Source of the DNA: Alphaproteobacteria bacterium
GTDB taxonomy: Bacteria > Pseudomonadota > Alphaproteobacteria > JABAAW01
NCBI GenBank assembly: GCA_014239005.1
Contig: JABAAA010000002.1
Location: forward strand, 1-19,754
Reading direction: 5' to 3'
Length of the DNA: 19,754 nucleotides
Program-made: the position numbers and the translations under genes
The notes under the pieces: model-generated
Databases searched by the model: none
What the model was told of the DNA's origin: nothing
What the model saw: the letters and a program-made list of their open reading frames with translations, nothing else
In this document: piece after piece, positions 3,223-19,754 of the stretch
Position numbering within the stretch: the first letter of the stretch is position 1
Layout of the letters: each line of letters opens with the position of its first letter

Positions 3223-3228
3223 TTCCGT

Positions 3229-3483: not shown

Positions 3484-3524
3484 CTCTGCCTCACGACAAA
3501 AAAATCGAAGTACTGCCCCTGAGT

Positions 3525-6117: not shown

Positions 6118-6160
6118 GGGTCCTTGTGGATTTGTACTGGGAACGACGGCAAGCCTCGCA

Positions 6161-6167
6161 GGAGGGG
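6161..6167 (+). promoter_or_regulatory. Shine-Dalgarno sequence that sets the rnhB start
   Basis: GGAGGGG followed by AAA and ATG at 6171. It is the strongest ribosome-binding match near rnhB and rules in favour of ATG 6171 over the upstream GTG at 6057, which would overlap the antiporter gene and add 38 non-conserved residues. Confidence 0.75.
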
Positions 6168-6170
6168 AAA

Positions 6171-6845
6171 ATGCAAGAGGGGCAGCAGCATGAGGGGCAG
6201 GATGGGAAAAGGCGAGAAGATCGTTGGCTCGCAGGAATTGACGAGGTTGGGCGTGGTCCGATAGCAGGACCTGTGGTGGCGGCGGCGGTGGTTTTTCCTC
6301 CTTCGCTGTTCGATGCACCGCCGTGCTTTTTGAAACAAGTCAGAGACAGCAAACAGCTATCGAGTTCGGTGCGCGAACGTTTGGCGGGTTCAATTACCAC
6401 CAGTGCTTTTGTCGGCTTGGGCGCAGCTTCGGTGGCGGAGATTGAGCGGATAAACATTTTGCAAGCGAGTTTGCGAGCGATGGAGCGTGCTTTTGCGCGT
6501 TTGTGTGGAACATTGGAGCGGGCGCAAGGACGGGGCGTGGATGTTTGTCTTGTGGATGGGCGGGATGTTCCTTTGCTCGTTCCTGTCCCTGAGGAGGTGA
6601 TTGCCGTTGTTCGAGGGGATACGAAATCGGTGACGATTGCTTGTGCGTCGATTGTGGCGAAGGTGGTACGGGATCGGCTGATGGAAAGGTTGGGGGTGCG
6701 CTATCCGTACTATGGGTGGGGGAAGAACCGAGGGTATGGGGTGGCAAAGCATTTGGAGGCGGTGGGAGCGGAGGGTTTGTCGCCGCACCATCGCAGGACA
6801 TTCGCGCCGTGTCGGGCGTTGTTGTTGAAGCAAACGGCGTCTTGA
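6171..6845 (+). CDS. rnhB: Ribonuclease HII
   Basis: RNase HII cuts the RNA strand of RNA-DNA hybrids and starts removal of single ribonucleotides from DNA. The product has 224 residues, the usual length. The DEDD catalytic set is visible: D24 and E25 in AGIDEVGRGPIAGP, D129 in CLVDGRD, and a later Asp at about 168 in KVVRDRLM. The GRGP motif (27-30) that recognises the RNA-DNA junction, DSKQLS (59-64), the CASIVAKV segment and the C-terminal HHRRTFAPC are also present. The first 20 residues are a Gln/Gly/Glu-rich lead-in without conservation. An rnhB-ccrM pair is a familiar alphaproteobacterial arrangement. Base usage is noticeably G- and T-rich compared with ccrM just downstream on the same strand. 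Confidence 0.93.
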   Translation: MQEGQQHEGQDGKRREDRWLAGIDEVGRGPIAGPVVAAAVVFPPSLFDAPPCFLKQVRDSKQLSSSVRERLAGSITTSAFVGLGAASVAEIERINILQASLRAMERAFARLCGTLERAQGRGVDVCLVDGRDVPLLVPVPEEVIAVVRGDTKSVTIACASIVAKVVRDRLMERLGVRYPYYGWGKNRGYGVAKHLEAVGAEGLSPHHRRTFAPCRALLLKQTAS

Positions 6846-6848
6846 TTC
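6844..6848. promoter_or_regulatory. GANTC methylation site upstream of ccrM
   Basis: GATTC overlaps the rnhB stop codon, about 25 bp upstream of the putative ccrM -35. GANTC is the target of CcrM. In Caulobacter the ccrM promoter region carries such sites and is repressed by full methylation, so a similar feedback is possible here; this is inference. Confidence 0.45.
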
Positions 6849-6868
6849 TTATCCTAAGGAAAAAAGCC

Positions 6869-6898
6869 TTGACGCTGCATACTATTGTCTGCTATGCT
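6869..6898 (+). promoter_or_regulatory. Putative sigma-70-type promoter of ccrM
   Basis: TTGACG at 6869-6874 and TATGCT at 6893-6898 are separated by 18 bp. Transcription from it would begin near 6905, leaving a leader of only about 20 nt before the GTG start at 6925. No CtrA-type TTAA-N7-TTAA box was seen nearby. Confidence 0.5.
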
Positions 6899-6924
6899 GA
6901 AAAGAAAAACTCCCCCCACCTCCC

Positions 6925-8118
6925 GTGTCTCCCCTCGCCAAAAGCCTCGACCGAAGCCTCGACCGAATTCTGCACGGCGATTGCATCACCACCATGCAAC
7001 GCCTCCCTGCCCAAAGCGTCGATGCCGTCTTCGCCGACCCCCCCTATTTTTTGCAACTCGACAAACCGCTCCATCGCCCCGACGAGACAAAAGTCGACGG
7101 CGTATCCGAAGCATGGGACAAATTCGCCGACTTCCAAGAATACGACAACTTCAACCGCGCGTGGCTCACCCAAGCTCGCCGCATCCTCAAAGACAACGGA
7201 ACACTCTGGGTCATCGGCTCCTACCACAATATCTATCGCATCGGAGCGCTTTTGCAAGACCTGAACTTTTGGATCCTCAACGACATCCTGTGGGTCAAAA
7301 CGAACCCCATGCCAAACTTCCACGGCAGACGCTTCACCAACGCCCACGAAACGCTGCTGTGGTGCTCCAAAACCCGCAACGCACGCTATCGCTTCAACTA
7401 TCGCGCGCTCAAACAACTGAACGGCGAAAAACAAATGCGCAGCGACTGGCACCTCCCCCTCTGCAACGGCAAAGAACGTCTGCGCGACAAGGACGGCACA
7501 AAGATCCACCCGACACAAAAACCCCTCTCGCTGCTCTATCGCGTCCTTCTCGCCAGCACGCACGTCGGAGATATCGTGCTAGACCCCTTCTGCGGCAGCG
7601 GTACCACCCCCGCCGCCTGCCGCCGCCTGGATCGCCGCTACATCGGTATCGAACGCGAGGCACACTATGTACGCGCCGCTCGCCAACGTCTGAAACGCAT
7701 CCCCCCTGCTACCTCGCAAGAATGCCTTCAGCTGCCCGAGCCACGTCAACAAGCACGCGACATCCCCTTCGCCGCCCTGCTGGAAAACGGACTCCTCCTG
7801 CCGGGCGACAAGCTCGAAAGCGCGTGCCGTCAGTATCAAGCGCTCGTCACCTCCGAAGGATTGCTGTCACGCAACCAACGCCGCGCCTCCATCCATCAAT
7901 GGGCAGCCGAACTCGCCGGACGAACAAGCTGCAACGGATGGACATACTGGTTCCACCCGCAAAAACAACAACACGCCACACGCGTGCCGCTACAAGAACT
8001 CAGAGAACATTTGCGAACAATCTCGCGCGCCACACAAAAACCCGTCAAAGAACCTTACTCGCCCGCAGAAGCCAAGGAAGAAACGGCAAGCGAAGAGGTG
8101 GAAGAAGAGAGGGGATAG
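6925..8118 (+). CDS. ccrM: CcrM-type GANTC-specific DNA adenine methyltransferase
   Basis: The cell-cycle-regulated methyltransferase of alphaproteobacteria, which methylates adenine in GANTC; 397 residues. It is a beta-class N6-adenine enzyme with DPPY (38-41) before the SAM motif DPFCGSGTT (220-228). Family blocks are nearly intact: LHGDCITTMQRLP (16-28), WVIGSYHNIYRIG, FWILNDILWVKTNPMPNF, NAHETLLW, MRSDWHLPLC and HPTQKP. The C-terminal RAMA domain (about 276-345), used for DNA recognition, ends in CNGWTYWF. A charged tail (about 370-397) follows. The start is GTG 6925: the family begins near the LHGDC block, and there is no good Shine-Dalgarno sequence, fitting a near-leaderless transcript. 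Codons 7-14 are a 12-bp duplication encoding SLDR twice. The last 64 bp overlap the convergent folP. Confidence 0.95.
   Translation: MSPLAKSLDRSLDRILHGDCITTMQRLPAQSVDAVFADPPYFLQLDKPLHRPDETKVDGVSEAWDKFADFQEYDNFNRAWLTQARRILKDNGTLWVIGSYHNIYRIGALLQDLNFWILNDILWVKTNPMPNFHGRRFTNAHETLLWCSKTRNARYRFNYRALKQLNGEKQMRSDWHLPLCNGKERLRDKDGTKIHPTQKPLSLLYRVLLASTHVGDIVLDPFCGSGTTPAACRRLDRRYIGIEREAHYVRAARQRLKRIPPATSQECLQLPEPRQQARDIPFAALLENGLLLPGDKLESACRQYQALVTSEGLLSRNQRRASIHQWAAELAGRTSCNGWTYWFHPQKQQHATRVPLQELREHLRTISRATQKPVKEPYSPAEAKEETASEEVEEERG
6943..6966. repeat. 12-bp tandem duplication in the ccrM N-terminus
   Basis: AGCCTCGACCGA occurs twice in a row and encodes SLDRSLDR at residues 7-14, just before the conserved LHGDC block. 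It is one of several in-frame short duplications at gene ends in this window. Confidence 0.85.
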
Positions 8119-9155
8119 AAGGCGCGTACGAAGCGTACGGTCTCCGCAACATCGTGTACGCGCAAGATGCGTACGCCTCCCGCCATGGCAGCAGCCACCG
8201 ATGCCAAACTGCCCTCCAAACGTTCGGCAGGATTGGAAGAACTCGAAGAACTCGAATATCCCCCCTCGTCCCCTCGCGCCAGCAAAGCCCCCAAGAAAGA
8301 CTTGCGCGACGCCCCCAGCATCGTCGGAAACGCCAGCGCGTCCAGCGCCGCCCACGAGCGCAAGATCGTCAGGTTTTGCGCCAAAGTCTTGCCGAAGCCC
8401 AAGCCCGGGTCGAGGACGATCTTCTCGCGCCGCACACCAGCACGCACGCACGCCTCCGCCAGTGCCTCCAAGCGCGCAAGCACGGAAAGGAAGGCGGATT
8501 CCGATTCCTCTTTGGGTTGCCACGAACCCCCACCCTCATGTTTCAAACCACGATGCAGACGGCTGGCGGCGTGATGCATCAACACCACCCATCCCCGCTC
8601 CTCGTCGCCTGTCTTGCCAAGCTCACGCCACAAGGCAGGACGTTCGACGCCTGACACATCGTTGAGCATGTGCGCACCCAAGCGCAAGGATTCCAACGCC
8701 AACTCCGCCTTGTCGGTGTCGACCGAAAGCAAAGCTTCGGGAAAAGCACGCAACAGCGCCTCCAGCGAAGGCAATAGGCGCGCTCGTTCTTGCTCTACCG
8801 AAAGAGCTGTCGCGCCGGGACGCGTGCTTTGCGCTCCCACATCCAGCCAATCTGCCCCTGCAAGCAAGGCGCGCTCGGCGGCACGCAACAGGCGCGTCGC
8901 ATCGTCGTGTCTTTCTTTTGGTCTCCCTTTTAGACTTCCTTTTGTCTTATGGACGGAAGAAAGCAAGCCGTCGCCCGAAAAGGAATCGGGCGTGACATTG
9001 ATAATCGCCATGACCGCAGGCGGCAGGTCGCGCCGTAGCAGCTTTGCACAACCCGCGCGTAGCGACGGCGAAGAACACGAGGCTGCCCGCCTCTGCTGGT
9101 CTTGATTCTTCGCGTCCTGATTCTTGTCGTCTTGACTCTGCAAGGTAGAGCCCAT
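8055..9155 (-). CDS. folP: Dihydropteroate synthase
   Basis: Condenses 6-hydroxymethyl-dihydropterin pyrophosphate with p-aminobenzoate to give dihydropteroate, in the folate pathway; the sulfonamide target. It has 366 residues from ATG 9155. Visible TIM-barrel motifs: AIINVTPDSFSGDG (50-63), GADWLDVGAQSTRPGA (100-115), SVDT (144-147), NDVSG (165-169), VVLMH (190-194), LDPGLGFGKT (248-257), SRKSFLG (283-289) and RVHDVAET (332-339). About 45 N-terminal residues are non-conserved, and poly-Ser tracts occur at about 301-307 and near the C-terminus. It is therefore longer than the usual 270-290 residues. GGAGGA six bases before ATG 9155 decides the start over an ATG 15 bp upstream. It overlaps ccrM tail-to-tail by 64 bp and diverges from folB. 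Confidence 0.93.
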   Translation of the reverse strand: MGSTLQSQDDKNQDAKNQDQQRRAASCSSPSLRAGCAKLLRRDLPPAVMAIINVTPDSFSGDGLLSSVHKTKGSLKGRPKERHDDATRLLRAAERALLAGADWLDVGAQSTRPGATALSVEQERARLLPSLEALLRAFPEALLSVDTDKAELALESLRLGAHMLNDVSGVERPALWRELGKTGDEERGWVVLMHHAASRLHRGLKHEGGGSWQPKEESESAFLSVLARLEALAEACVRAGVRREKIVLDPGLGFGKTLAQNLTILRSWAALDALAFPTMLGASRKSFLGALLARGDEGGYSSSSSSSNPAERLEGSLASVAAAMAGGVRILRVHDVAETVRFVRAFYPLSSSTSSLAVSSLASAGE

Positions 9156-9161
9156 AGCATG

Positions 9162-9167
9162 TCCTCC
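9162..9167 (-). promoter_or_regulatory. Shine-Dalgarno sequence that sets the folP start
   Basis: Read on the minus strand this is GGAGGA, six bases before ATG 9155. It lies inside the codons of an alternative in-frame ATG at 9170, so the downstream ATG is preferred. Only 38 bp separate this start from that of the divergent folB, so the two promoters must overlap each other or the opposite gene. Confidence 0.7.
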
Positions 9168-9193
9168 CATGATCGAGGCGAGCCAAAGGAATC

Positions 9194-9568
9194 ATGGTCT
9201 TCCATACCACAAGCTACCGTATCCTTGTCGAGAACCTGACCTTGCAAGCGCGCATCGGCATCCTGCCCGAAGAACGCACCACCCCGCAACGTTTGTGCGT
9301 TTCCTTGCGCATTGCGTCGTCCGTCTCGCGCTCGGTTGAACGAAGATCTTTTTTGTGCTACAAGGAGCTGGTAGAAGAAATCACAGACTTGATTTCACAA
9401 GGACACATCGACCTGTTGGAAGACTTGGCAGAGAGGCTTGCAACCTTGTGCTTCGCTCGTCCGCAAGCCCTCTCCGTGTGGATGCGCTTGAGCAAACCCG
9501 ATGCTCTTGCTGATGCCGAGGCGGTCGGGATCGAGACAACCTTCGAACGAAAAGGAGGAACGCCATAG
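9194..9568 (+). CDS. folB: Dihydroneopterin aldolase
   Basis: Converts 7,8-dihydroneopterin to 6-hydroxymethyl-dihydropterin and glycolaldehyde, the step before the FolK/FolP reactions. It has 124 residues, the usual length. The family pattern is seen as YRILVENLTLQARIGILPEE (8-27, with the pterin-site region ILPEERTTPQ), LCYKELVEEI (about 55-64) with the conserved Tyr, DLLEDLAERLA, and a C-terminal SKPDALADAEAVGIE strand carrying the conserved Lys of the KP-x-A motif. AAAGGA just before the ATG supports the start; a GANTC site (GAATC, 9189-9193) touches the start codon. The neighbouring divergent gene is folP, so two folate steps are encoded together. Confidence 0.88.
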   Translation: MVFHTTSYRILVENLTLQARIGILPEERTTPQRLCVSLRIASSVSRSVERRSFLCYKELVEEITDLISQGHIDLLEDLAERLATLCFARPQALSVWMRLSKPDALADAEAVGIETTFERKGGTP

Positions 9569-9571
9569 ATT

Positions 9572-9619
9572 ATGATTATGACCATGATTATGACCAAGAC
9601 CAAGACCAAGACCATGACC
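9572..9619. repeat. 12-bp x2 and 6-bp x3-4 tandem repeats at the start of mlaC-like gene 1
   Basis: ATGATTATGACC occurs twice (9572-9595), then AAGACC three times (9596-9613) and ATGACC once. The block encodes MIMTMIMTKTKTKTMT. It supplies at least five in-frame ATG codons ahead of the signal peptide. Confidence 0.85.
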
Positions 9620-10315
9620 TACAGCACGACCAACACCCTGACCGATGTCACGACGCACACGACGAGAAAAGCGTTTTCTCTTTTTGCGATGATGTTTGCA
9701 AGTCTCACCTTGTTGTTTTTGTTCGGCGCGCGTAGCGAGGCTATTGCTGCGCTCACCGAGGATCAGAAGAGCGAGATTGCCCTGCAATTCATCAAGCAAA
9801 ACGGCACGGTGATGGCTTCGATCATGGGAAACGAAAGCATGACGCGACAAAAAAGACGCCTCAAGCTGAAAGCGATCATGGAAAATAATTTCGATCTTGC
9901 CACCATGATGCGTGCCATCATCGGTCCTTACTGGCGCAAGATGGACGAGCAGCAGCGCGAACGCTATAAAAATGCTTCGACGCAATGGATCGTTCTATAT
10001 TCGGCGAACTTTCTAAGCACGATCAAACCTGTCAAGTTCGAGGTGCTTTCGGCAAGTCCGCTTGGCAAGGATGTGCTGGTGGAAACCAAGACGCAAGCCA
10101 AGGGCAAACCCGAACCCGTCACGATGCATTGGCGAGTGCGCTTCACCCCCGACGACCGAGCCACCTTGATCGACATGCACTTTCGCGGACTCAGTATGGT
10201 GGCAGCGCAACGCGGCGAGGTCTCTGCGATGCTGGCTGAGCGGGGTATCCCTACCTTCCTCGACAAGATCGAGAAAAGGCTTGTGAAGATCCGACAGGAA
10301 TTCAACAAAAACTGA
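9572..10315 (+). CDS. MlaC/Ttg2D-like periplasmic phospholipid-binding protein, copy 1
   Basis: A secreted protein of the MlaC (toluene-tolerance Ttg2D) family. MlaC carries phospholipids across the periplasm between the outer-membrane MlaA complex and the inner-membrane MlaFEDB transporter. It has 247 residues. A hydrophobic signal segment (about 34-52, FSLFAMMFASLTLLFLFGA) is followed by a possible AIAA cleavage region. The mature part shows the MlaC-like run NNFDLATMMRAIIGPYWRKM, Q-RERYKN-x-x-x-x-WI, a Y-x-x-x-F-L segment and a late W-RVRF strand. The 33 residues before the signal are Thr/Met/Lys-rich and arise from 12-bp and 6-bp repeats, so the true start could be any of several ATGs (9572, 9578, 9584, 9590, 9614). 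GGAGGA lies 12 bases before 9572. folB ends 3 bp upstream, implying co-transcription. Confidence 0.75.
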   Translation: MIMTMIMTKTKTKTMTYSTTNTLTDVTTHTTRKAFSLFAMMFASLTLLFLFGARSEAIAALTEDQKSEIALQFIKQNGTVMASIMGNESMTRQKRRLKLKAIMENNFDLATMMRAIIGPYWRKMDEQQRERYKNASTQWIVLYSANFLSTIKPVKFEVLSASPLGKDVLVETKTQAKGKPEPVTMHWRVRFTPDDRATLIDMHFRGLSMVAAQRGEVSAMLAERGIPTFLDKIEKRLVKIRQEFNKN

Positions 10316-10320
10316 CGACG

Positions 10321-10348
10321 ATGTTTGCTCGCTGATGTTTGCTCGCTT
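10321..10348. repeat. 14-bp tandem duplication creating a four-codon upstream ORF
   Basis: ATGTTTGCTCGCTG (10321-10334) is followed directly by ATGTTTGCTCGCTT (10335-10348), 13 of 14 bases identical. The first copy reads M-F-A-R-stop, and its TGA (10333-10335) overlaps the ATG of the following gene as TGATG. The second copy is the true start of the second MlaC-like gene, which also begins MFAR. The duplication may couple translation of the two. Confidence 0.8.
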
Positions 10349-11030
10349 TGTCATCGGCGGGGGCGCGGTCGTCGCGCTCTGCTTTGCGCTATCGGCAGGA
10401 GAGGTAGCCCAAAGTCAAGAGCTGGGAAAAGGGCTCAAGCGCAGCGACGCTTGCACCCTCCGGCAAGTGCGCGCTTTTGCCGACAGCAAGGCGCGTGCTT
10501 TGCTGAAAGAGATTCAGCAACAACAAAAGGCGACCGCAGAGAAGGCTTCGAAAAGAAAGCAGTTGCAAGCTTACAAGGACATCTTGCGTCAGATCTTCGC
10601 CTACGAGACGGTGGCGCGCAGCTTGGTGGGTCCTTACTGGCGCAAGATGTCGTCTTCCGAGCGCGAAGAGTACACGACGATTCTCACCGCGATGTTGGAG
10701 AGTTTGGTGAGCAACGCGATCTACAATCTTCCTGTCAAGGGCTACGAGGTGTCGAAGGTGTCGCGGCTGGGAAAAGATTTCGCGGTTAACCTGTCGGTGA
10801 GTGTCGAGGACGACGCGGATGATCTGCTGATCGTTTGGCGGGTGCGTTGTTTCGAAAGGGGGAGAGGGGAAGGTGCGCGCATGGGGATCATCGATGTGAT
10901 CGTTCGCAGTGTGAGTGTGATCGCAGGCAAGCGGCGTGAGATGACGGATATTCTAAGCAAGCAGGGGATAGGACAGTTTTTGCGCATGCTGGCGTACGAG
11001 CGCGACAGGCTCAAAAAGCAAGAGCGATAG
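10335..11030 (+). CDS. MlaC-like periplasmic phospholipid-binding protein, copy 2
   Basis: A second, divergent MlaC-family protein of 231 residues. An N-terminal signal peptide (about 4-25, FVIGGGAVVALCFALSAGEVA, cut near SAGEVA or QSQ) leads into a helical segment. It then shows the family core IFAYETVARSLVGPYWRKM, S-x-REEYTTILTAMLESLVSNAIY and a WRVRCF strand. The heptapeptide GPYWRKM is identical in both copies, supporting tandem duplication followed by divergence. No Shine-Dalgarno sequence is seen before ATG 10335; the stop of a four-codon upstream ORF overlaps the start (TGATG). The first copy ends 19 bp upstream, so they probably form one transcript with folB. No mlaA, mlaD, mlaE or mlaF is in the window. 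Confidence 0.7.
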   Translation: MFARFVIGGGAVVALCFALSAGEVAQSQELGKGLKRSDACTLRQVRAFADSKARALLKEIQQQQKATAEKASKRKQLQAYKDILRQIFAYETVARSLVGPYWRKMSSSEREEYTTILTAMLESLVSNAIYNLPVKGYEVSKVSRLGKDFAVNLSVSVEDDADDLLIVWRVRCFERGRGEGARMGIIDVIVRSVSVIAGKRREMTDILSKQGIGQFLRMLAYERDRLKKQER

Positions 11031-11060
11031 AGATCGGCGACAACGTCTTTTCGTTTCTAC

Positions 11061-11099
11061 AAAACCCATCGCTAAAACTCATCGCTAAAACCCGTCGCT
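11061..11099. repeat. 13-bp tandem repeat, three units, downstream of the MlaC-like pair
   Basis: AAAACCCATCGCT, AAAACTCATCGCT and AAAACCCGTCGCT run head to tail in the intergenic region between the second MlaC-like gene and recA. The period is not a multiple of three, consistent with a non-coding location. Confidence 0.8.
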
Positions 11100-11134
11100 C
11101 ACTCGTAAGCGAGCCTCCATCAACACTTTTTCCT

Positions 11135-11179
11135 TAAGCGAAGCGAACACGCAACCGCGCGAAAAAAACAATTCGCTTA
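11135..11179. other. Inverted repeat directly after the recA stop codon
   Basis: TAAGCGAA at 11135-11142 and TTCGCTTA at 11172-11179 are perfect 8-bp inverted repeats around a 29-bp centre that contains a run of seven A on the plus strand. The right arm touches the recA stop. There is no T run after the stem on the recA strand, so it is not a classical terminator; it may stabilise the recA mRNA 3' end. Confidence 0.5.
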
Positions 11180-12442
11180 CTACGACACCGAACGCATCGG
11201 TGGAACAGGCGGCGGCGCAGCAGGAGCCGCAACGCGTGCTGAAGGAGCAGGAGGAGCAGGAGGAGCAGAAGCATGCGGAGGAGGAGCAGGAGGAGCAGAA
11301 GTATGAGGAGGAGGAGCAGGAGCGCCCCCCGCAGCAGGAGGTGGTGGTGGTGGTGGAGCGCCATCCGCAGGAGCAGGAGCGCCTTCTGCAGCAGGTGGCG
11401 GCGAAGGCGAAGGCGCCTCCAACATCACATCCGACAACAACCCCTCTTTTTCGCGAACCTTGTTTTCAATCACACGCGCACTTTTCTCATTCGCGCGCAA
11501 CCACGTTCGTGCATTCTCACGCCCCTGCGCAATCCGTTGCTTGTCGTATGCATACCACGCCCCCGATTTCTCGATAATTCCCGCGCTCACTCCCAAGTCC
11601 AAGATCTCGCCACTCTTGGAAATTCCTTCGTCGTACATAATATCGAACTCGACGACTCGAAACGGCGGAGCCACCTTGTTCTTGACAACCTTGACCCGCG
11701 TCTGATTTCCGACCACGACATCCTTGTCCTTGACCGCCCCAATGCGCCGAATGTCGAGACGCACGCTGGCATAAAACTTCAACGCGTTGCCTCCCGTGGT
11801 CGTCTCCGGATTGCCGAACATGACGCCGATCTTCATGCGGATCTGGTTGATAAAAATAACCATCGTGCGCGACCGCGCGACCGATCCCGTCAGCTTCCGC
11901 AAGGCTTGGCTCATGAGCCTTGCATGCAAGCCGACATGGGTATCGCCCATGTCGCCCTCAAGCTCGGCGCGCGGCACGAGGGCCGCGACCGAATCGATGA
12001 CCAGCACATCGAGCGCGCTGGAGCGCACGAGCGTATCGGCGATCTCCAACGCCTGTTCTCCCGCGTCGGGCTGCGAGATGAGCAAGGCGTCCAAGTTGAT
12101 GCCAAGCTTCTTGGCATAGGAAGGATCGAGCGCATGCTCTGCGTCCAAGAACGCGCACTGCCCGCCCCGACGCTGCGCCTCGGCGATCACATGCAGCGCC
12201 AAGGTCGTCTTGCCCGAAGATTCCGGTCCGTAGATCTCGATGATGCGCCCGCGCGGCAAGCCCCCCACGCCTAACGCGATGTCCAAGCCCAGCGAGCCCG
12301 TCGAGATGGATTCGATCCCCTCCACCTCCTGATGTCCTAAGCGCATGATCGAACCCTTGCCGAAGCTGCGCTCGATCTCGTCCAACGCAGAGGCAAGCGC
12401 CTTCTGTTTGTCGCTTTGTTGCTTGCTGTTCGACTTCTCCAT
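11180..12442 (-). CDS. recA: Recombinase RecA with an unusual Pro/Ala-rich C-terminal tail
   Basis: The ATP-dependent DNA strand-exchange protein for recombination and SOS induction, cytoplasmic. It has 420 residues from ATG 12442. Walker A is GPESSGKT (72-79), the catalytic Glu region is DAEHALDP (100-107), and Walker B is LDVLVIDS (144-151). The L1 loop lies around [21 protein letters not shown], and L2 is in [16 protein letters not shown] (211-226). The core ends near 342, after [19 protein letters not shown]. The last about 78 residues are almost only Pro, Ala, Gly and Ser ([18 protein letters not shown] and similar) in place of the usual short acidic tail. GAGGAGG seven bases before the ATG sets the start. 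A promoter and a 14-bp repeat array lie upstream. No alphaproteobacterial LexA box (GAAC-N7-GAAC or GTTC-N7-GTTC) was seen. Confidence 0.97.
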
Positions 12443-12449
12443 CAGAGCG

Positions 12450-12456
12450 CCTCCTC
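12450..12456 (-). promoter_or_regulatory. Shine-Dalgarno sequence that sets the recA start
   Basis: GAGGAGG on the minus strand, seven bases before ATG 12442. It rules out the 14-codon longer reading from 12484, which has no conserved residues. Confidence 0.8.
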
Positions 12457-12486
12457 GACATCGGCTACACAAACCCGCCCGCAACG

Positions 12487-12515
12487 AGCGTACGACGCAG
12501 GCAAGAAAAAAGCAA
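12487..12515 (-). promoter_or_regulatory. Putative recA promoter
   Basis: On the minus strand, TTGCTT (12515-12510) and TACGCT (12492-12487) are spaced by 17 bp. The predicted transcript would start near 12480 and have a leader of about 40 nt. The 14-bp repeat array begins at the -35 element and extends upstream of it. Confidence 0.45.
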
Positions 12516-12568
12516 GTCTCTTACTACAAGTCTCTTACTACAAGTCTCTTGCTACAAGTCTCTTGCCA
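12513..12568. repeat. 14-bp tandem repeat, four units, immediately upstream of the recA promoter
   Basis: CAAGTCTCTTACTA occurs twice exactly, then CAAGTCTCTTGCTA and CAAGTCTCTTGCCA. The four units are contiguous, without spacers, so this is not a CRISPR array. They lie between the divergent recA promoter and the helicase promoter at 12590. Confidence 0.9.
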
Positions 12569-12589
12569 CAAGAAATCCACGGGTCGCGC

Positions 12590-12618
12590 TTGACTAAAAA
12601 GGCAAAAACACATAGAAT
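12590..12618 (+). promoter_or_regulatory. Sigma-70-type promoter of the DEAD-box helicase
   Basis: TTGACT at 12590-12595 and TAGAAT at 12613-12618 are spaced by exactly 17 bp, the best promoter match in the window. It points toward the helicase start at 12771, giving a leader of about 145 nt. Long 5' leaders are common for cold-shock RNA helicases, but no regulatory structure was identified here. Confidence 0.65.
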
Positions 12619-12628
12619 GCCGCGCTAA

Positions 12629-12664
12629 GGTCTGTGCGAGAGTCTGTGCGATGGTCTGCGCGAG
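12629..12664. repeat. 12-bp tandem repeat, three units, in the helicase leader
   Basis: GGTCTGTGCGAG, AGTCTGTGCGAT and GGTCTGCGCGAG are contiguous just downstream of the promoter, inside the predicted 5' untranslated leader. The rest of the leader (12665-12755) is purine-rich and shows no gene. Confidence 0.75.
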
Positions 12665-12755
12665 CAAAAACCACCCGCAACAACGGGCGAAAGCGAACAG
12701 GACCACCCGTAAGGCAGAAGAAAAAAAACAGAGAACGCGAAGACGACCATAAGGA

Positions 12756-12875
12756 ACGCAGGACAACGTAATGCAAGACAACGCAACGCAGGACAGCACA
12801 ATGCAAGACAGCGCAACGCAAGACAAGGCAATGCAAGACAGCGCAACGCAAGACAGCGCAACGCAAGACAAGTCC
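12756..12875. repeat. 15-bp tandem repeat, eight units, spanning the helicase start codon
   Basis: Eight contiguous units of the type A(T/C)GCAAGACAGCGCA run from 15 bp before the annotated ATG into codon 35. Units 2, 4 and 6 begin with ATG (12771, 12801, 12831) and the others with ACG, all in one frame. They encode MQDNATQDSTMQDSATQDKA and similar. Each ATG is therefore a possible start. Confidence 0.9.
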
Positions 12876-14249
12876 GTGAGTGATTTTTCCACGCTCGGCT
12901 TGAGCGAGAAGTTATTGCAACAGGTGGCACAGGCAGGATTTTCATGCCCGACCCCAATTCAAGCGCAGGCGATTCCCAACGTCTTGATGAACCGCGACCT
13001 CGTCGGGATTGCACAAACTGGCACCGGCAAGACCGCCGCCTTCGTCTTGCCGCTGCTCGATATACTGGCGCACGGCAGACAACGCGCGGCGCTTCCGCGT
13101 GCGCTGGTGCTGAACCCGACGCGCGAGCTTGCGATGCAAACCGCGCAAGTGACCGAAACCTTTGCGCGAAACTTGGGGATTAGCCACACGCTGCTGATCG
13201 GCGGCATGACGATAGGCGAGCAAACACGTGCCCTCACGCGTGCCCCCGATGTCGTGATTGCAACGCCGGGCAGATTGTTGGACTTGCACGGACGCGGCAA
13301 GCTTATGTTCAACGCGATCACGGTGCTGGTGATCGACGAAGCCGATCGCATGCTGGACATGGGGTTCATTCCCGATGTCGAACGCATCTGCGCGCTGCTG
13401 CCCGCACGACGCCAAACGATTCTGATGAGCGCCACGTTGGACGATGCGGTCGCGCGCCTGATCAAACGTTTCACGACCGCCGCAAAACATATCGATCTCT
13501 CTCCGCAACGGCGCAGCGCAGACACGGTCGAAGAAGTCTTTCTGTCCGTAGCCTCTGAGCGAACCAAGCTGGCATGGCTGACCCAAGAGCTCGCGAAGCA
13601 CAACTCTGTGTTGGTGTTTTGCAACCGCCGCCAGCGCGTGCGCGAGGTTACAAAACAGCTTTTGCAAAATCGCATAGCCCATGTCGGACAGCTGCACGGC
13701 GACATGCCGCAGCCCTTGCGCATTGCAGAACTCGAACGTTTCCGCAACGGCACGCTCAAAACTCTCGTCTGCTCCGATGTGGCAGCGCGCGGCTTGGATA
13801 TCGAAGCCGTCGATTGCGTCGTCAACTTCGACGTGCCTCTGACGCGCGACAACTATGTCCACCGAATCGGACGCACAGGGCGCGCAGGACTGCGCGGCAT
13901 CGCCGTCACCTATGTGAGCCGCGAAGACAGAGTGCTGCTGGAACGCATCGGGATGCTCGATCGTCTCAACGACCTCAAGGACTTCGACAACGAAAACCCC
14001 GCCGACAACTCCCCCGCCGACAACTCCCCCAGACAGGAAACAAGACAGGAAACAAGACAACGCGAAACAACAAAAGAACGCACGCAAGGCAGAGGAAGAA
14101 GAAACAGAAACCACCACTCGGACAACCCCGAAGAATGGCAACAAGAACGGCAACAAGAACGGCAACACGAGCGGCAACACGAGCGGCCAAAAGAGCGGCA
14201 ACAAGAGCGGCAAGAATCTTTGCCCGCCTTCCTGCGCAACCCCGTCTGA
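12771..14249 (+). CDS. DEAD-box ATP-dependent RNA helicase (RhlE/DeaD group)
   Basis: An RNA-dependent ATPase that unwinds or remodels RNA; in bacteria such helicases act in ribosome assembly and mRNA decay, often in the cold. It has 492 residues. All core motifs are present: Q motif F-x-x-PTPIQ (57-64), I AQTGTGKT (81-88), Ia PTRELA (116-121), Ib TPGR (165-168), II DEAD (189-192), III SAT (220-222), V ARGLD (339-343) and VI HRIGRTGR (364-371). The first about 35 residues are a 5-residue repeat (QDSAT), and the last about 85 are Gln/Glu/Arg-rich, including a QQER/QHER repeat. Such basic disordered tails are typical RNA-binding extensions. The start is uncertain because three in-frame ATGs lie in the repeat; AAGGA and AGGAC precede the first. 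Which named subfamily it belongs to is not settled by eye. Confidence 0.94.
   Translation: MQDNATQDSTMQDSATQDKAMQDSATQDSATQDKSVSDFSTLGLSEKLLQQVAQAGFSCPTPIQAQAIPNVLMNRDLVGIAQTGTGKTAAFVLPLLDILAHGRQRAALPRALVLNPTRELAMQTAQVTETFARNLGISHTLLIGGMTIGEQTRALTRAPDVVIATPGRLLDLHGRGKLMFNAITVLVIDEADRMLDMGFIPDVERICALLPARRQTILMSATLDDAVARLIKRFTTAAKHIDLSPQRRSADTVEEVFLSVASERTKLAWLTQELAKHNSVLVFCNRRQRVREVTKQLLQNRIAHVGQLHGDMPQPLRIAELERFRNGTLKTLVCSDVAARGLDIEAVDCVVNFDVPLTRDNYVHRIGRTGRAGLRGIAVTYVSREDRVLLERIGMLDRLNDLKDFDNENPADNSPADNSPRQETRQETRQRETTKERTQGRGRRNRNHHSDNPEEWQQERQQERQHERQHERPKERQQERQESLPAFLRNPV
14139..14210. repeat. 12-bp tandem repeat, six units, at the helicase C-terminus
   Basis: Units CAACAAGAACGG (two), CAACACGAGCGG (two), CCAAAAGAGCGG and CAACAAGAGCGG are contiguous. 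They encode QQER, QHER and PKER tetrapeptides in the basic tail of the helicase. Confidence 0.85.
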
Positions 14250-14303
14250 CGCGAGGCGACCTTCCTCCCTAATCTTGCACCCCTTACGCGGAGAACCCGT
14301 TTT

Positions 14304-16328
14304 ATGGCAGAAAGCCCCTCCCCTTTAACCGTCGCTCGTCCTTCGGCGGATCCCGTCGCAGACCATCGCTATCATGTGCAACACTCGCACCCCCTGCCGT
14401 CGCTGGATACAGTGCACGCGCGCGCCTATCAAGCGCAAAGCGCCGGCGGCAACGAAGGCTTCTTGGCTTATGTCTGCGACCGCCGCTTCTTTCCTCGCCT
14501 AAGTGCCTGCGACGCGTTCGTGCGCTTGCGCCACAGCGCGCTGATACAATTTCAAGAATGGCAACTGCAACGCGACGAGGAAGGCGTGGAGCGCGTCGTT
14601 CTGATCTACAAGCATCCGAACAAAGGGCTGTACTTGGATTCGCTGGAAAAAACGACGACAGCAATGCCCCTGAAAGAATGCGTGAAACGATTTTTGAAAC
14701 CCGTGCTTGCTCCCTTGCAAGCGATTCACGCCGTCGGTCTAACCTATCGCGCCTTTTCGCCGACCAACCTTTTTGTTCAAGGTTCGGAGATGAACTCGTT
14801 CGTGTTGGGACAATGTCTGAGCGAGCCCGCGGGCTCGTTGCAACCGCGTCTTTTTGAAACGCTAACCTGCGCCATGACAGAACCGCAAGGGCGCGGCAGC
14901 GAGATCGCTGCCAACGACTATTACGCGTTGGGCGTGATGGTCTTCACGTTGCTGCGAGGACACGTGCCTTTGCGCATGGTCTCGGAAGAAGCGGTGATCT
15001 TGCAAAAGGCACGCTTGGGCTCGTACCGCGCGCTGCTGGAGCATGCACAGATGGAGGCGGAAAGCGCCGAGTTGTTGCGCGGATTGTTGGACGACAACCC
15101 CGGCACACGCTGGGGCTACGAAGAAGTGGTGGCGTGGCTGGGAGGCTATCGACGCTCGGTCGACAACCACTTCACGCCGCCGCGCGCGAAAGTGCCGTAC
15201 TACCTGCGCGAGCAAGCGATCACCACGCGCCAAGAGATGTGCTACATGTTGCATCGCAACTGGAAGGACGCGATCGATATAAGCAGGCACTCCGATCTTG
15301 GACATTGGATCCGACGATCCTTTGCCGACGACGCCGACGCAAGAGCCATCCTGCAACTGCGAGACGAGAAAGCCAGCCCCGATGTCCACAAGTCCGACCT
15401 GACCGACAGCTTGACGCGTACGCTCATCTTGCTGAACCCGTTAGCGCCCATCTTGTCGCGCGATTCGGGCTTCACAGTCACAGGCGTCGGCAACATGCTC
15501 GCCAAGTACCACCAGCAGCCCGGCAAGATCGCAACTTTGCTTCACATCCTCAAACAGGGAACCCACGATTTTTGGATGCGACACCACATCTACAGCGCGC
15601 CCGCCTACCTCGCCGCCGTCAAGACGATCTCTATCCTGGTCCAGCGCGTGCTGCACAGCGACAATGATTTCGCCACCTTGCGCTTCTTCTACACGCTCAA
15701 CCTCGACGCGCCTTGCATGTCGGCGTTGTTTGCAAGAGACTATGTCTACGGCTTGTCGTCGCTGCTGGAACGCTTGGAAAAAAGACTGGAGGCACAAGAG
15801 GAAGAATCACGTCTACAACTCGATTCGCACCTGCTCGCCTACATCTCCGCCTACCACGACACCGACGGTGCCGACGCGCTGACCGCAGCCCTGCAACAAG
15901 GGGATCCGATCAAAAGCGGGTTGGCGCAAGTGCGCCTGCTCAACATTGTCCAACGACGCCACAACCGCGTACCTGCCTACCGTCTCTGTCGTGCATTGCT
16001 GCCCCTGCTCGAGCCCGCACTGGAACGCTTTCACAACATCGAAAAACGAGAAGAGCTGAAAAAACATTTGCAAACATGTGTCAAGGACGGGTGGATCGAG
16101 CCCATGCTGTCGCTCGTCGACAACCCCTCGCTGCTTGCCAAAGATGCCAAGTCTTACTTCGAAGCGCAAAAACGCTACAAAAACAACCACCAAGAGCTGA
16201 TGCGCATCGCGCACGCCCACCATGACATGCCGGCCCAAATCCATCGCACTGCAAACAACGCCGCCATGACCACCAGCTCCGGGCTCATGGTCGTGGGTTT
16301 CATCACCATGCTACTGAGGCTCATCTAG
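14304..16328 (+). CDS. Tail-anchored pseudokinase-like protein of unknown function
   Basis: A 674-residue protein I do not recognise by name. Residues 20-285 look like a degenerate protein kinase fold. IHAVGLTYRAFSPTNLF (141-157) aligns with the HRD-x-x-P-x-N catalytic loop, but His-Arg-Asp is Tyr-Arg-Ala, and Ser replaces the Lys. No DFG is found after it (VLGQ near 167-170). DYYALGVMVFTLLRG (205-219) matches the helix after the activation segment, and DNPGTRWGYEEVVAWL (264-279) matches the end of the kinase C-lobe. No ATP-binding Lys in a VAIK context is seen. Residues 290-650 are predicted mostly helical. A hydrophobic stretch ends the protein (657-673), suggesting a tail anchor with the rest cytosolic. 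CGGAGA precedes the ATG. The partner membrane protein starts one base after the stop. Confidence 0.7.
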   Translation: MAESPSPLTVARPSADPVADHRYHVQHSHPLPSLDTVHARAYQAQSAGGNEGFLAYVCDRRFFPRLSACDAFVRLRHSALIQFQEWQLQRDEEGVERVVLIYKHPNKGLYLDSLEKTTTAMPLKECVKRFLKPVLAPLQAIHAVGLTYRAFSPTNLFVQGSEMNSFVLGQCLSEPAGSLQPRLFETLTCAMTEPQGRGSEIAANDYYALGVMVFTLLRGHVPLRMVSEEAVILQKARLGSYRALLEHAQMEAESAELLRGLLDDNPGTRWGYEEVVAWLGGYRRSVDNHFTPPRAKVPYYLREQAITTRQEMCYMLHRNWKDAIDISRHSDLGHWIRRSFADDADARAILQLRDEKASPDVHKSDLTDSLTRTLILLNPLAPILSRDSGFTVTGVGNMLAKYHQQPGKIATLLHILKQGTHDFWMRHHIYSAPAYLAAVKTISILVQRVLHSDNDFATLRFFYTLNLDAPCMSALFARDYVYGLSSLLERLEKRLEAQEEESRLQLDSHLLAYISAYHDTDGADALTAALQQGDPIKSGLAQVRLLNIVQRRHNRVPAYRLCRALLPLLEPALERFHNIEKREELKKHLQTCVKDGWIEPMLSLVDNPSLLAKDAKSYFEAQKRYKNNHQELMRIAHAHHDMPAQIHRTANNAAMTTSSGLMVVGFITMLLRLI

Positions 16329-16329
16329 C

Positions 16330-16839
16330 ATGACGACGCCGAACGAACCGCCGATGCAGGGGTCGCGCGCCAAGCTCGTCCTTCCGATCCTGACGGCATG
16401 CCTTGTCATCTTGGCAGGGATCTATTCGCCGTGGATCCTGTTCGCCTCCTTCGCCCTGCTACCAACCCTGCTCGTGCGCATGCTCGACAAGGGTGAGAAG
16501 CGCGTCTTGAGCTTCTCGGTGACAGGGCTGAACATCACAGGACTGATGCTCGCCTTGCAGCACAGCTACAGCACTTACGGTGCGTCGCCGAAATCCGGCG
16601 AGCTGTTTCAAGACTGGTTCAACTGGACCCTGCCTTTCGGACTGGCGTGGATCGGCATCTTGTTCTTCATGGCATTTCCCATCGTGTTCGCCAGCGTCAT
16701 GGAAATCGTCCTGCAACACAAGGAGCGACGCTTGAAAGATCAGCAACAGACGCTACTCAAGGCTTGGGGAACGCAGCTGCAACAGAAGGCGACGAGCGCG
16801 ACGGACAAGGACGACAAAAAAAGAAGTACCGAAGTCTAG
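16330..16839 (+). CDS. Small polytopic membrane protein paired with the pseudokinase
   Basis: A 169-residue protein of unknown function that I do not recognise. Hydrophobic stretches at about 14-32, 34-52, 58-78 and 96-126 suggest three or four membrane helices. The last is long and runs into a cytosolic, Lys/Gln-rich, probably coiled tail (about 128-169, HKERRLKDQQQTLLKAWG). There are no cysteines and no known catalytic motif. The ATG is one base after the stop of the pseudokinase gene, and TGAGG lies inside the end of that gene, so the pair is almost certainly translated from one mRNA and probably interacts. The stop TAG (16837-16839) overlaps the stop of rpoH on the other strand. Confidence 0.75.
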   Translation: MTTPNEPPMQGSRAKLVLPILTACLVILAGIYSPWILFASFALLPTLLVRMLDKGEKRVLSFSVTGLNITGLMLALQHSYSTYGASPKSGELFQDWFNWTLPFGLAWIGILFFMAFPIVFASVMEIVLQHKERRLKDQQQTLLKAWGTQLQQKATSATDKDDKKRSTEV

Positions 16840-17777
16840 TCCTCGGCAGGAGCCGCAGGAGCCGCAGGAGCCTTAGAGGGGGTCGACAACAACGCCTGTT
16901 CTTTCTGCGCCACAGCCCGTCGCAGCTTTTCGAAAGCTGCCGACTCGATTTGGCGAACGCGCTCGCGGCTGACGCGATAGCGCTTGCTCAACTCTTCTAA
17001 CGTGGTGGCGGGGTCTTGCAAACGTCGAGCACTCAAGATGTTGCGCTCGCGGGGCTTGAGCGTTTGCATTGCTTCTTCCAAGATCGAGCGTCGGTAACGT
17101 TGTTCGTCTGCCTCCAAGAATCTGCTCTCGTGGTCGGCGCTTTCGTCTTCGATCCATTCTTGCCACGCGTCGCCGTCGTCGCCGACCGGCGTTTGCAACG
17201 AGAGATCGCGCGACGAAAGCCGAGCGTGCATCATTTCGACTTCGTGCGCCTCGACATCGAGCGCGGCGGCGATTTGTGCAACCTCTTCGGCGCTGATCTT
17301 CTGACTGTCGATGGCACGCATTTGCTGGCGCAGCTTGCGCAAGTTGAAAAAGAGCTTTTTCTGCGCCGCAGTCGTGCCGATTTTGACCAGCGACCACGAG
17401 CGCAGCACATAGTCTTGCACCGCCGCGCGAATCCACCACATCGCGTAGGTTGCCAGTCGAAAGCCGCGCTCGGGATCGAAGCGCCGCACCGCTTGCATCA
17501 ACCCGATATTGCCTTCCGAGACGAGCTCGGCGTAAGGCAAGCCGTAGCCGCGATAGCCCGCGGCGATCTTGGCGACGAGACGCAGGTGGCTCAACACCAA
17601 ACGATGCGCCGCTTCGACATCTTTGTGATCGATCCACCGACGGGCGAGCATGTACTCTTCCTCACGTTCGAGCAGAGGCACTTTGCGCACCTCGGCAAGG
17701 TAGCGCTCCAACCCCTCCTCGCTGACGCTCAGCGAAGAGGCGCTACGCGCAACGACGGAAGTTCCTGCTTTGGTCAT
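16836..17777 (-). CDS. rpoH: RNA polymerase heat-shock sigma factor RpoH (sigma-32)
   Basis: The sigma factor that directs RNA polymerase to heat-shock promoters. It has 313 residues. Region 1.2/2 is visible as EEGLERYLAEVRKVPLLERE, and region 2.1-2.4 as LRLVAKIAAGYRGYGLPYAEL, then SEGNIGLMQAVRRFDPERGF, RLATYAMWWIRAAVQDYVLR (84-126). The diagnostic RpoH box is QKKLFFNLRKL (139-149). Region 4.2 is TLEELSKRYRVSRERVRQIE (259-278). A short APAAPAAP tail comes from a 9-bp repeat. AAGGA about ten bases before ATG 17777 supports the start. RpoH activity is usually controlled by chaperones, FtsH and, in some bacteria, mRNA structure; a stable hairpin sits in the leader here, but it does not cover the ribosome-binding site. 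It diverges from purH and converges with the pseudokinase operon, sharing a CTAG at the stops. Confidence 0.96.
   Translation of the reverse strand: MTKAGTSVVARSASSLSVSEEGLERYLAEVRKVPLLEREEEYMLARRWIDHKDVEAAHRLVLSHLRLVAKIAAGYRGYGLPYAELVSEGNIGLMQAVRRFDPERGFRLATYAMWWIRAAVQDYVLRSWSLVKIGTTAAQKKLFFNLRKLRQQMRAIDSQKISAEEVAQIAAALDVEAHEVEMMHARLSSRDLSLQTPVGDDGDAWQEWIEDESADHESRFLEADEQRYRRSILEEAMQTLKPRERNILSARRLQDPATTLEELSKRYRVSRERVRQIESAAFEKLRRAVAQKEQALLSTPSKAPAAPAAPAED
16846..16872. repeat. 9-bp tandem repeat, three units, at the 3' end of rpoH
   Basis: GCAGGAGCC occurs three times without interruption. On the minus strand it encodes the APAAPAAP tail just before the rpoH stop. Confidence 0.85.
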
Positions 17778-17800
17778 TCGGCACGATCCTTACAAACTTG

Positions 17801-17820
17801 AGCCTTGCTTGCGCAAGGCT
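17801..17820 (-). other. Perfect hairpin with GNRA-type loop in the rpoH leader
   Basis: On the minus strand, AGCCTTGC - GCAA - GCAAGGCT forms an 8-bp perfect stem closed by a GCAA tetraloop, an unusually stable RNA motif. It lies about 24 nt upstream of the rpoH start and about 76 bp upstream of the divergent purH start. As DNA it is also a 20-bp palindromic site that could bind a dimeric regulator. No T run follows, so it is not a terminator on either strand. Confidence 0.6.
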
Positions 17821-17844
17821 TTACAACAAACCTCACCCTATGCC

Positions 17845-17850
17845 ATTATA
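17845..17850 (-). promoter_or_regulatory. Perfect -10 hexamer upstream of rpoH
   Basis: Reading the minus strand gives TATAAT, about 70 bp before the rpoH start. No -35 lies at the standard distance; TTGAAC is 22 bp upstream, which is too far for an ordinary sigma-70 promoter. The same six bases also overlap any plus-strand promoter for purH (TTTACA at 17820-17825, then CATTAT 18 bp later). Confidence 0.4.
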
Positions 17851-17896
17851 GCGGGGGAGGAGGAGAATTCTTGTTCAAAAGAACGGAGAGAGAAGC

Positions 17897-19636
17897 ATGC
17901 AGGAAGGGGCGTCGGCGCTGAAGGACGGGCTGGAGGCAACGCAACAGCCCAAAAAACAGCCCAAAAAACAGCACGAGAAACAGCACGAGAAACAGCATAG
18001 GAAACAGCACGAGATGTTCGCGTTGTTGTCCTTGCAAGATGCGACATCGGCACTGACGTTGGCGTGCGCCTTGCAAAAAAAGGGGGTCGGGCTGTTGGCG
18101 ACCAAAGGCACGCACGAAAAGATGGCGCAGCATGGCATCGAGACGATTCCGGTCTCGGAGTATACGGGGATCGGAGAAATCGCGCAAGGAAGGGTTAAGA
18201 CGCTGCACCCACGCATTCTCGGCGGCATACTGGGCGAGCGCGGCGCAGAGCCCGAACTCTTGCCCGACGGACGACCGATCTTTCCCATCGACTATGTGGT
18301 TGTGCAACCCTACCCGTTCCACGAAATGGCGCAGAATCTTTCTGACCAAAAGGTTTCGGCGGTCGATATCGACGAGTTGCAAGAGCATATCGACATCGGC
18401 GGGATCACACTTTTGCGCGCGGCAGCGAAGAACTATCGGCATGTGTGTGCACTCTTCGAGCCGCAAGACTGCGAGACGGTGGCTGCCATCATTGCTGCCG
18501 ACGCACGCGGCGGATGCAAGGTGCAACGTTGCTTGGACGAAGAGCTGCTACGCACGTTGGCGAGCAAGGTCTTTCAAAAGACGGCGCTCAACGACATGAT
18601 GATCGGAGACTGGCTCGGCATGGAGGTCTCCGAAAATCCTCTCCCTGCCCATCGCAACAGCTTTGCCGATCAGGCGTTGCTGCTGCGCTACGGAGAGAAC
18701 CCGCATCAGGCGGCAGCCCTGTTTGTTCTGAAGAAGAACTACGCACCGCCTTCCGACTTCCAGCCCTCGTCGCCGACGCTCAGCGGACGCAGTCCCAGCT
18801 ACAACAACCTGCTCGACGCTTACAAGGCGACGCGCGCCGTCGTGCGCCAAGACCTTCCCACCTGCGCGATCGTCAAACACGGCAATCTCTGTGGACTTGC
18901 GCAAGCCCACGACATCTTGCAAGCCTTCGAGCTCGCCTACAAAAGTGACAGCCTCTCTGCTTACGGCGGGATCGTCGCCGTCAACCGTCCTTGCTGCGAA
19001 GAGATGCTGGAAATGCTGAAAAAGCGGTTTCTCACCCTCGTCGCAGCCCCCTCGTTCGCGGAGGGAGCGCTGGAGACGATGGCGGACAAAGCCAATCCCC
19101 CCTTGCTACTACCCTATCCTCGCCTTGCCTACGAAATTGGCGGAAGATTCGAGACGCGCTCGCTCGGGGAGCATTTGCGCCTCTTGCAAACGCCGAACGA
19201 TATCAGGCTCACGCTCGACGACATCGCGGACAAGAACACGAAGGAGCCTAACGAGACGCAGAAAGAAACCCTGCTGTTTGCCTTCGAGGCTGCCTCGCTC
19301 ATGACCTCCAACGCGGTTGCCATCGTCCGCCGCGACACCACCTCTGCAAAGGTTCATGCCACCGTGGGCTTGGGATGCGGACAGACCAGTCGCATCGATG
19401 CTGTCGAGGTCGCCCTTTACAAGGCGCGCAGGGAAGGACACGATTTGCAAGGATGCGTCGCGGCTTCGGACGGATTCTTTCCTTTCAACGATTCGCTCGA
19501 TGCCTTAGCGAAGGCGGGCATCACTGCTGTCGTCCATCCGGGTGGGGGAAAGAACGAGAAGGGCATCATCGAGCATGCAAGCAGCTTGGGAATCAGTCTA
19601 TGCTCGACGGGGGGCGTGCGCGCGTTCAGTCACTAG
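17897..19636 (+). CDS. purH: Bifunctional AICAR transformylase / IMP cyclohydrolase
   Basis: Catalyses the last two steps of IMP synthesis: formylation of AICAR with 10-formyl-tetrahydrofolate, then ring closure. It has 579 residues. The N-terminal MGS-like cyclohydrolase domain (about 40-180) shows VSEYTGIGEIAQGRVKTLHP (86-105) and DIDIGG-type DIGGITLLRAAAKN (166-179). The transformylase part shows LRYGENPHQAAALF (263-276), SYNNLLDAYKA, KHGNLCGL (327-334), SAYGGIVAVN, GCGQTSRIDAV and SDGFFPFNDS (524-533). The catalytic Lys-His pair is kept, but the family's NPCG reads NLCG. The first 39 residues are a Gln/Lys/His/Glu repeat; the family would start near MFALLSL (18014). GGAG eight bases before ATG 17897 favours the long form. 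The protein is more divergent than its neighbours. Confidence 0.93.
   Translation: MQEGASALKDGLEATQQPKKQPKKQHEKQHEKQHRKQHEMFALLSLQDATSALTLACALQKKGVGLLATKGTHEKMAQHGIETIPVSEYTGIGEIAQGRVKTLHPRILGGILGERGAEPELLPDGRPIFPIDYVVVQPYPFHEMAQNLSDQKVSAVDIDELQEHIDIGGITLLRAAAKNYRHVCALFEPQDCETVAAIIAADARGGCKVQRCLDEELLRTLASKVFQKTALNDMMIGDWLGMEVSENPLPAHRNSFADQALLLRYGENPHQAAALFVLKKNYAPPSDFQPSSPTLSGRSPSYNNLLDAYKATRAVVRQDLPTCAIVKHGNLCGLAQAHDILQAFELAYKSDSLSAYGGIVAVNRPCCEEMLEMLKKRFLTLVAAPSFAEGALETMADKANPPLLLPYPRLAYEIGGRFETRSLGEHLRLLQTPNDIRLTLDDIADKNTKEPNETQKETLLFAFEAASLMTSNAVAIVRRDTTSAKVHATVGLGCGQTSRIDAVEVALYKARREGHDLQGCVAASDGFFPFNDSLDALAKAGITAVVHPGGGKNEKGIIEHASSLGISLCSTGGVRAFSH
17945..18013. repeat. 12-bp tandem repeat, nearly six units, in the purH N-terminal extension
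   Basis: CAGCCCAAAAAA (two), CAGCACGAGAAA (two), CAGCATAGGAAA and CAGCACGAG are contiguous and end exactly at the ATG where conserved PurH sequence begins (18014). They encode QPKK and QHEK tetrapeptides. Confidence 0.88.
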
Positions 19637-19670
19637 CGTCCGCCGTCGCTGTCGCTATCGCTATCGTCTT

Positions 19671-19686
19671 GGGCACAAAAGTGCTC
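19671..19686. other. Small hairpin downstream of purH
   Basis: GGGCAC - AAAA - GTGCTC forms a 6-bp stem (one G-T pair) 34 bp after the purH stop. It is followed by CAAAAAATC rather than a T run, so it is a poor match to a Rho-independent terminator for purH. A short 6-bp repeat (GTCGCT/ATCGCT, about 19645-19662) precedes it. Confidence 0.3.
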
Positions 19687-19712
19687 TCAAAAAATCTTGT
19701 AGGATGTTCTTG

Positions 19713-19742
19713 TTGCACGACAGCCGACAAGCATGCTACAAT
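19713..19742 (+). promoter_or_regulatory. Putative sigma-70-type promoter facing out of the window
   Basis: TTGCAC at 19713-19718 and TACAAT at 19737-19742 are spaced by 18 bp. Transcription would start around 19749 and read past the right edge, so the gene it serves is not visible. Confidence 0.5.
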
Positions 19743-19754
19743 GCACGGCTTGCG

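Follow-up and report, generated by a model that had tools for sequence, protein, structure and literature searches.

What does a protein kinase fold do at a bacterial membrane once the residues for phosphotransfer are gone? This question is raised by two adjacent genes in a 19,754-nucleotide stretch of alphaproteobacterial DNA (assembly GCA_014239005.1, contig JABAAA010000002.1, positions 1 to 19,754), referred to here as the window. The first gene (14304-16328, plus strand) encodes a 674-amino-acid kinase-like protein, and the second (16330-16839, plus strand) encodes a 169-amino-acid membrane protein, referred to as the partner. The two open reading frames (ORFs) lie as the first-pass annotation of this DNA had described them, with a single base between the TAG stop codon of the first (16326-16328) and the ATG of the second (16330). 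In a wide range of Alphaproteobacteria, the pair probably forms one inner-membrane complex that acts through binding and not through phosphotransfer. The computed basis for this model consists of a predicted kinase fold, a family-wide loss of catalytic residues, the co-occurrence of both genes in genomes, their frequent adjacency, and the correlated distances of the two proteins. The likeliest reading of the role of the complex would be that of a membrane-docked signaling scaffold or an allosteric regulator, as the same annotation had proposed.

The kinase-like protein belongs to a conserved family and is recognizable as a kinase both by profile and by predicted structure. The Pfam family Pkinase (PF00069) matched residues 74-276 with 32.2 bits against a gathering threshold of 31.7, and six of eight relatives tested matched Pkinase at E up to 0.01. 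Within the window's assembly (1.48 Mb, 70% complete), no other protein matched Pkinase at E≤0.001. The predicted model is a bilobal kinase structure at residues ~18-282 (14355-15149), followed by a mostly helical region at residues ~299-640 (15198-16223) and a tail helix at residues 642-673. A kinase outline, a helical stretch after it, and a single hydrophobic tail at the end of the protein had been read from the letters earlier, and the model agrees with all three. The predicted structure returned protein kinases in a fold search, the helical region spans ~340 residues, and hydropathy together with the tail helix places a C-terminal hydrophobic anchor at residues ~653-673 (16260-16322). The motifs pointed out at the same time (YRAFSPTNL with Ala150 and Ser152, DYYALG, and LGQC at the DFG site) are all present. 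At E up to 0.1, nothing in Pfam matched the window protein beyond Pkinase and a chance-level Oleavirus_coat, and neither the protein nor its partner matched PHROGs. More specific assignments were rejected. Fourteen PADLOC families (kinase-type where named; best E 3e-10) matched within residues 74-351, a span that is nearly all kinase domain, and these matches were read as fold-level and not as membership in a defense system. The models for class IV lanthionine synthetase (49.5 of 650 bits) and MADS6 (34.9 of 460 bits) matched far under their cut-offs.

Can this kinase fold still catalyze phosphotransfer? A hidden Markov model alignment to MAPKAP kinase 2 placed the beta-3 Lys at V57, the HRD Asp at A150, and the DFG Asp at Q170. 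An active Ser/Thr kinase carries both the beta-3 Lys and the HRD Asp, and the window protein has neither. Its degenerate catalytic loop (residues 148-156, 14745-14771) retains Asn155, with Asp replaced by Ala150 and the loop Lys by Ser152. The loss of the catalytic Asp, the loop Lys, the DFG motif, and the ATP-binding Lys, as proposed earlier, was upheld. The glycine-rich loop is also absent, both from the window protein and from the family consensus.

The same losses were found among the relatives, for which 185 kinase-like sequences were collapsed to 157 non-redundant ones. At the beta-3 position, 146 of the 157 have a hydrophobic residue (V, I, or L), two have Lys, two have Arg, and two have a gap. 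The HRD Asp position contains Asp in two sequences and a gap in one; of the two positions before it, the first is H in 143 sequences and the second is R in 116, where the window protein reads YRA. Orthologues with intact motifs were sought, and the two with the HRD Asp both lack the beta-3 Lys, so that none of the 157 relatives combines the two residues. Because these column counts extend over 157 sequences, the pseudokinase state is a trait of the whole family. In other words, the loss of catalytic residues is common to the family and not peculiar to the window protein. In WNK kinases the catalytic Lys sits in strand 2, and the top VIA match was a WNK kinase. An active kinase with a similarly displaced Lys was rejected, as the HRD Asp is also gone and strands 1-2 (residues 23-46) contain no Lys.

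Other parts of the active site are kept. The catalytic-loop Asn is present in 151 of the 157 relatives and R65 in 145. At the DFG Asp position, D (70) and E (66) predominate, followed by Q and P (10 each) and A (one). Judging by these residues, most members have retained a putative metal-binding-like pair (Asn with D or E), which the window protein has lost. One alternative is that the kinase-like protein uses its kinase fold as the re-purposed active site of an enzyme, or else senses nucleotides or metals, and that the partner serves as its substrate or receptor in the membrane. The retained Asn, the acidic residue at the DFG site (136 of 157), and R65 would fit such an activity, and SelO and SidJ provide a precedent as degraded kinase folds with gained activities (PMC12599244). 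However, the VAIK column still contains a Lys in SelO and SidJ (PMC12599244, Table 1), whereas it is hydrophobic in nearly all members of the present family. The missing glycine-rich loop and the Gln at the DFG site of the window protein also speak against this alternative, which is considered unlikely.

The helical domain that follows the kinase fold is conserved to a similar degree. Mean conservation over the 157 sequences was 0.51 for residues 451-520 and 0.50 for the kinase C-lobe, the two highest values in the protein. A second family-wide patch, missed in the earlier annotation, lies at residues 451-513 (15654-15842). It contains Y463 (conserved in 100%), C471 (99%), S473 (97%), D507 (98%), and H509 (94%). 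The window protein keeps these patch residues but lacks the family-typical G455, G457, and E459. Could the active site lie here, as a catalytic or metal site, with the pseudokinase domain merely regulating it? The near-invariance of the five residues, in a region as conserved as the C-lobe, would favor this explanation. However, none of 46 members matched Pfam in this domain at E up to 0.01, PDB matches were weak, and the patch residues may instead form a structural core or a binding site. An enzyme of this kind is rather improbable.

The partner appears to be the membrane subunit of the pair. Its predicted model (predicted local distance difference test score 91.2) consists of helices at residues 12-32, 34-42, 44-52, 59-83, and 89-94 and a long helix at 96-168. 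From predicted topology, with support from the pattern of charge and hydrophobicity, the protein probably has four membrane helices with both ends inside. P45, N68, P117, W146, and G147 were invariant among 63 partner members, which places an invariant Trp-Gly in the C-terminal helix. None of the partner relatives listed (120 of 515) carried a Pfam label, and those for which the source gives a name were mostly called "hypothetical protein".

How regularly do the two genes occur together? A single-sequence search for the kinase-like protein matched 38 of 96 relatives, two of them weakly. Profile searches for both proteins were made in 289 genomes of the class, with a completeness of 90% or more for every genome but that of the window. 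At E≤0.001, the kinase-like protein was found in 114 genomes and the partner in 100. Presence was then defined by E<1e-30 for the kinase-like protein and E<1e-7 for the partner. This removed 14 genomes in which the kinase match was weak, and one in which the partner match was weak (G009). With these thresholds the kinase-like protein was present in 100 of the 289 genomes, and the partner in 99 of those 100 and in none of the 189 others. The remaining genome, G303, proved to have a divergent partner immediately downstream of the kinase-like gene (L124, E 4e-9). Homologues that regularly lack the partner were looked for as well: none of the 100 genomes was found to lack it, although some single copies of either gene do not have the other next to them. 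At the phylum level, 10 of the 299 genomes searched carried the partner, and each of these belongs to the window's class; the share of the 299 from outside the class was not established, which leaves a restriction to the class unproven. Among the named relatives, of which 80 of 145 were kept, are Azospirillum, Skermanella, Niveispirillum, Telmatospirillum, Terasakiella, Nisaea, Thalassobaculum, Novispirillum, Roseospira, and SAR116. Genomes of ~1.4 Mb (G052, G227) also carry the kinase-like protein.

Neighbor conservation and the profile searches of both families bear out the two-gene pairing. The partner follows the kinase-like gene in 78 of 80 named loci; of the other two, L111 is cut by contig ends and L055 has its partner elsewhere in the genome. 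Inspection of a further 30 loci found that the partner follows in 29. At L022, the partner match is located elsewhere in the genome, and its aligned part is interrupted by two in-frame stops. Gene maps showed the partner as the next gene in 139 of 154 loci, a set that counts some genomes twice (L104 and L138, for example, are apparently one contig). Eight of the other 15 (L032, L037, L101, L154, L158, L170, L178, L188) have an adjacent partner that was missed by ORF choice. Adjacency is thus common but not universal.

Several loci depart from the simple pair. The whole two-gene unit is duplicated in tandem at L127 and L129. Kinase-like paralogues at L112, L113, and L114 have a similar ORF just upstream and no adjacent partner, and the same genomes carry a paired copy. 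G019 and G148 each contain three extra partner copies without a kinase-like gene; four of the six were inspected (L120, L121, L122, L123), and the copy at L120 adjoins a long ORF and an ORF that resembles a response regulator by eye.

Further evidence on the pair comes from correlated evolutionary distances. Close relatives were dropped before distances were compared, which reduced 82 loci to 71 with purA and hisZ as controls and 62 loci to 49 with purA and rpoH as controls. Distances of the kinase-like protein and the partner correlated at 0.78, and at 0.69 after removal of the purA and hisZ components, a value reached in 0 of 1000 permutations (71 loci). After the same removal, the correlation was 0.26 between the kinase-like protein and hisZ (also 0 of 1000 permutations), 0.11 between the kinase-like protein and purA, and 0.00 between the partner and either hisZ or purA. 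With purA and rpoH as controls (49 loci), the value for the pair was 0.62. A contrary explanation is that the two proteins do not touch and that their gene order, which is widely shared at this site, is merely inherited. This is very improbable in view of the persistence of the partner where the genes are apart (G279, G208, L055, L022) and its absence, at the thresholds used, from all 189 genomes without the kinase-like protein.

How might the pair work? Contact between the two proteins, the docking site, the membrane topology, any client, and the cellular role are inferences from these results. The kinase-like protein would be a tail-anchored platform whose N-terminal kinase fold is incapable of ordinary phosphorylation. 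The kinase fold and the conserved helical domain would both be cytoplasmic, held by one C-terminal membrane helix. The partner would be the membrane subunit, and its long cytoplasmic helix with the invariant Trp-Gly would most likely dock on the kinase-like protein. Together, the kinase fold and the helical domain may recruit or gate a third component at the membrane. A bolder version, to which only a small chance is given, is that the pair is an unrecognized alphaproteobacterial membrane machine. In such a machine the pseudokinase domain would sense or clamp the Trp-Gly tail of the partner and thereby switch a second active or binding site formed in the helical domain by Y463, C471, S473, D507, and H509.

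Several observations weigh against a complex that works by binding. The conservation of the loop Asn and of D or E at the DFG site exceeds what a pure scaffold needs. Seven kinase-like genes have no adjacent partner (L055, L112, L113, L114, L125, and the split pairs L116 and L118 of G279 and G208), and the lone partner copies of G019 and G148 have no kinase-like gene. Because the genomes are related, the co-occurrence does not amount to 289 independent trials. The kinase-like protein also correlated with purA (0.41) when purA and rpoH served as controls (49 loci), and shared rate shifts may partly explain the correlated distances, since the controls evolve more slowly than either protein of the pair.

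The recurrent neighbors of the pair are housekeeping genes. Among 155 cases, purA is immediately upstream in 95, and rpoH, in opposite orientation, is the gene after next in 75. hisZ was found in 89, serA in 37, and serC in 35 of 159 loci. With one representative per neighbor cluster, NCBIfam placed purA, rpoH, serA, serC, and the RluA family over their cut-offs, and hisZ below its cut-off (247.0 of 271.65 bits). Inheritance is the best reading of the gene order here, because purA is directly upstream in so many cases and hisZ and serA often share those loci. In the window the rpoH side is retained: rpoH (sigma-32; 16836-17777, minus strand; NCBIfam rpoH_proteo over cut-off) is convergent with the partner gene, with a 4-base overlap of their ends, and is a common neighbor not counted in the module. 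A heat-shock circuit, in which the pair regulates or is regulated with rpoH, would fit this convergent overlap and the recurrence of rpoH but is hardly credible given the apparently inherited order and the 38 of 155 cases that lack both purA and rpoH within three genes; contig ends or ORF choice account for some of these. The upstream neighbor in the window is a DEAD-box helicase that ends, at 14100-14249, in a low-complexity tail with many Asn, Gly, Lys, and Ser residues, encoded by short near-repeats (by eye). Elsewhere in the window are two adjoining MlaC-like genes (9572-10315 and 10335-11030) and a 333-amino-acid ORF (11273-12274) that matched neither Pfam nor NCBIfam at E up to 0.1.

Bacterial pseudokinases are recognized but little studied, and EssB/YukC of type VIIb secretion is a membrane pseudokinase that bacteria use as a scaffold (PMC12599244). 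EssB/YukC shares with the present family the degraded kinase motifs, a cytoplasmic pseudokinase domain, a membrane anchor, and a proposed non-catalytic scaffolding role (PMC12599244). The present protein differs in having a ~340-residue, probably cytoplasmic helical domain after the kinase fold and its anchor at the very C-terminus. Pfam includes the EssB/YukC family, and the window protein's matches there were only the two named above. Its recurrent neighbors, purA, hisZ, serA, serC, rpoH, and an RluA-family synthase, are housekeeping genes; the rare neighbors are only partly annotated. GLW pseudokinases are likewise proteobacterial with a membrane helix C-terminal to the pseudokinase domain, but they carry GLW in place of HRD and a poly-Leu motif with Leu or Trp at beta 3 (PMC12599244), whereas this family has mostly HRAIRPxN (YRAFSPTN in the window) and A-[LY]-[VI]-C. 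The MviN pseudokinase domain (ActPs3) is also membrane-linked and binds neither ATP nor magnesium, but it is mainly actinobacterial and its motifs, VALT and Lsidhpsr, differ (PMC12599244). DLHK and CP1 pseudokinases are proteobacterial as well, and the DLHK loop (Hrdlrpas) resembles HRAIRPxN (PMC12599244). However, DLHK retains the HRD Asp and has no membrane region, and CP1 has no membrane region and is linked to a COG3899 domain (PMC12599244), in contrast to the A150 and the hydrophobic tail helix of the window protein. The active Ser/Thr kinases PknA and PknB share the kinase fold, but the catalytic Lys and Asp that they combine are never found together here.

The family motifs match no pseudokinase family described in the available portions of PMC12599244, and the open-access literature searched contained no description of the pair, in line with the suggestion that the module was undescribed. 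We take the kinase-like proteins to be a new pseudokinase family of a known kind that has a novel architecture and whose partner falls into no known family. Close kinase-like relatives among the matches listed are annotated with just the Pkinase label, and partner relatives are unlabeled in Pfam. The kinase-like protein occurs in about one third of the sampled genomes of the class (100 of 289), and its partnership is near-strict at the genome level. This wide occurrence, together with so close an association with a membrane protein outside the known families, makes the pair a clean, testable case for asking what role a kinase fold may play once catalysis is lost.
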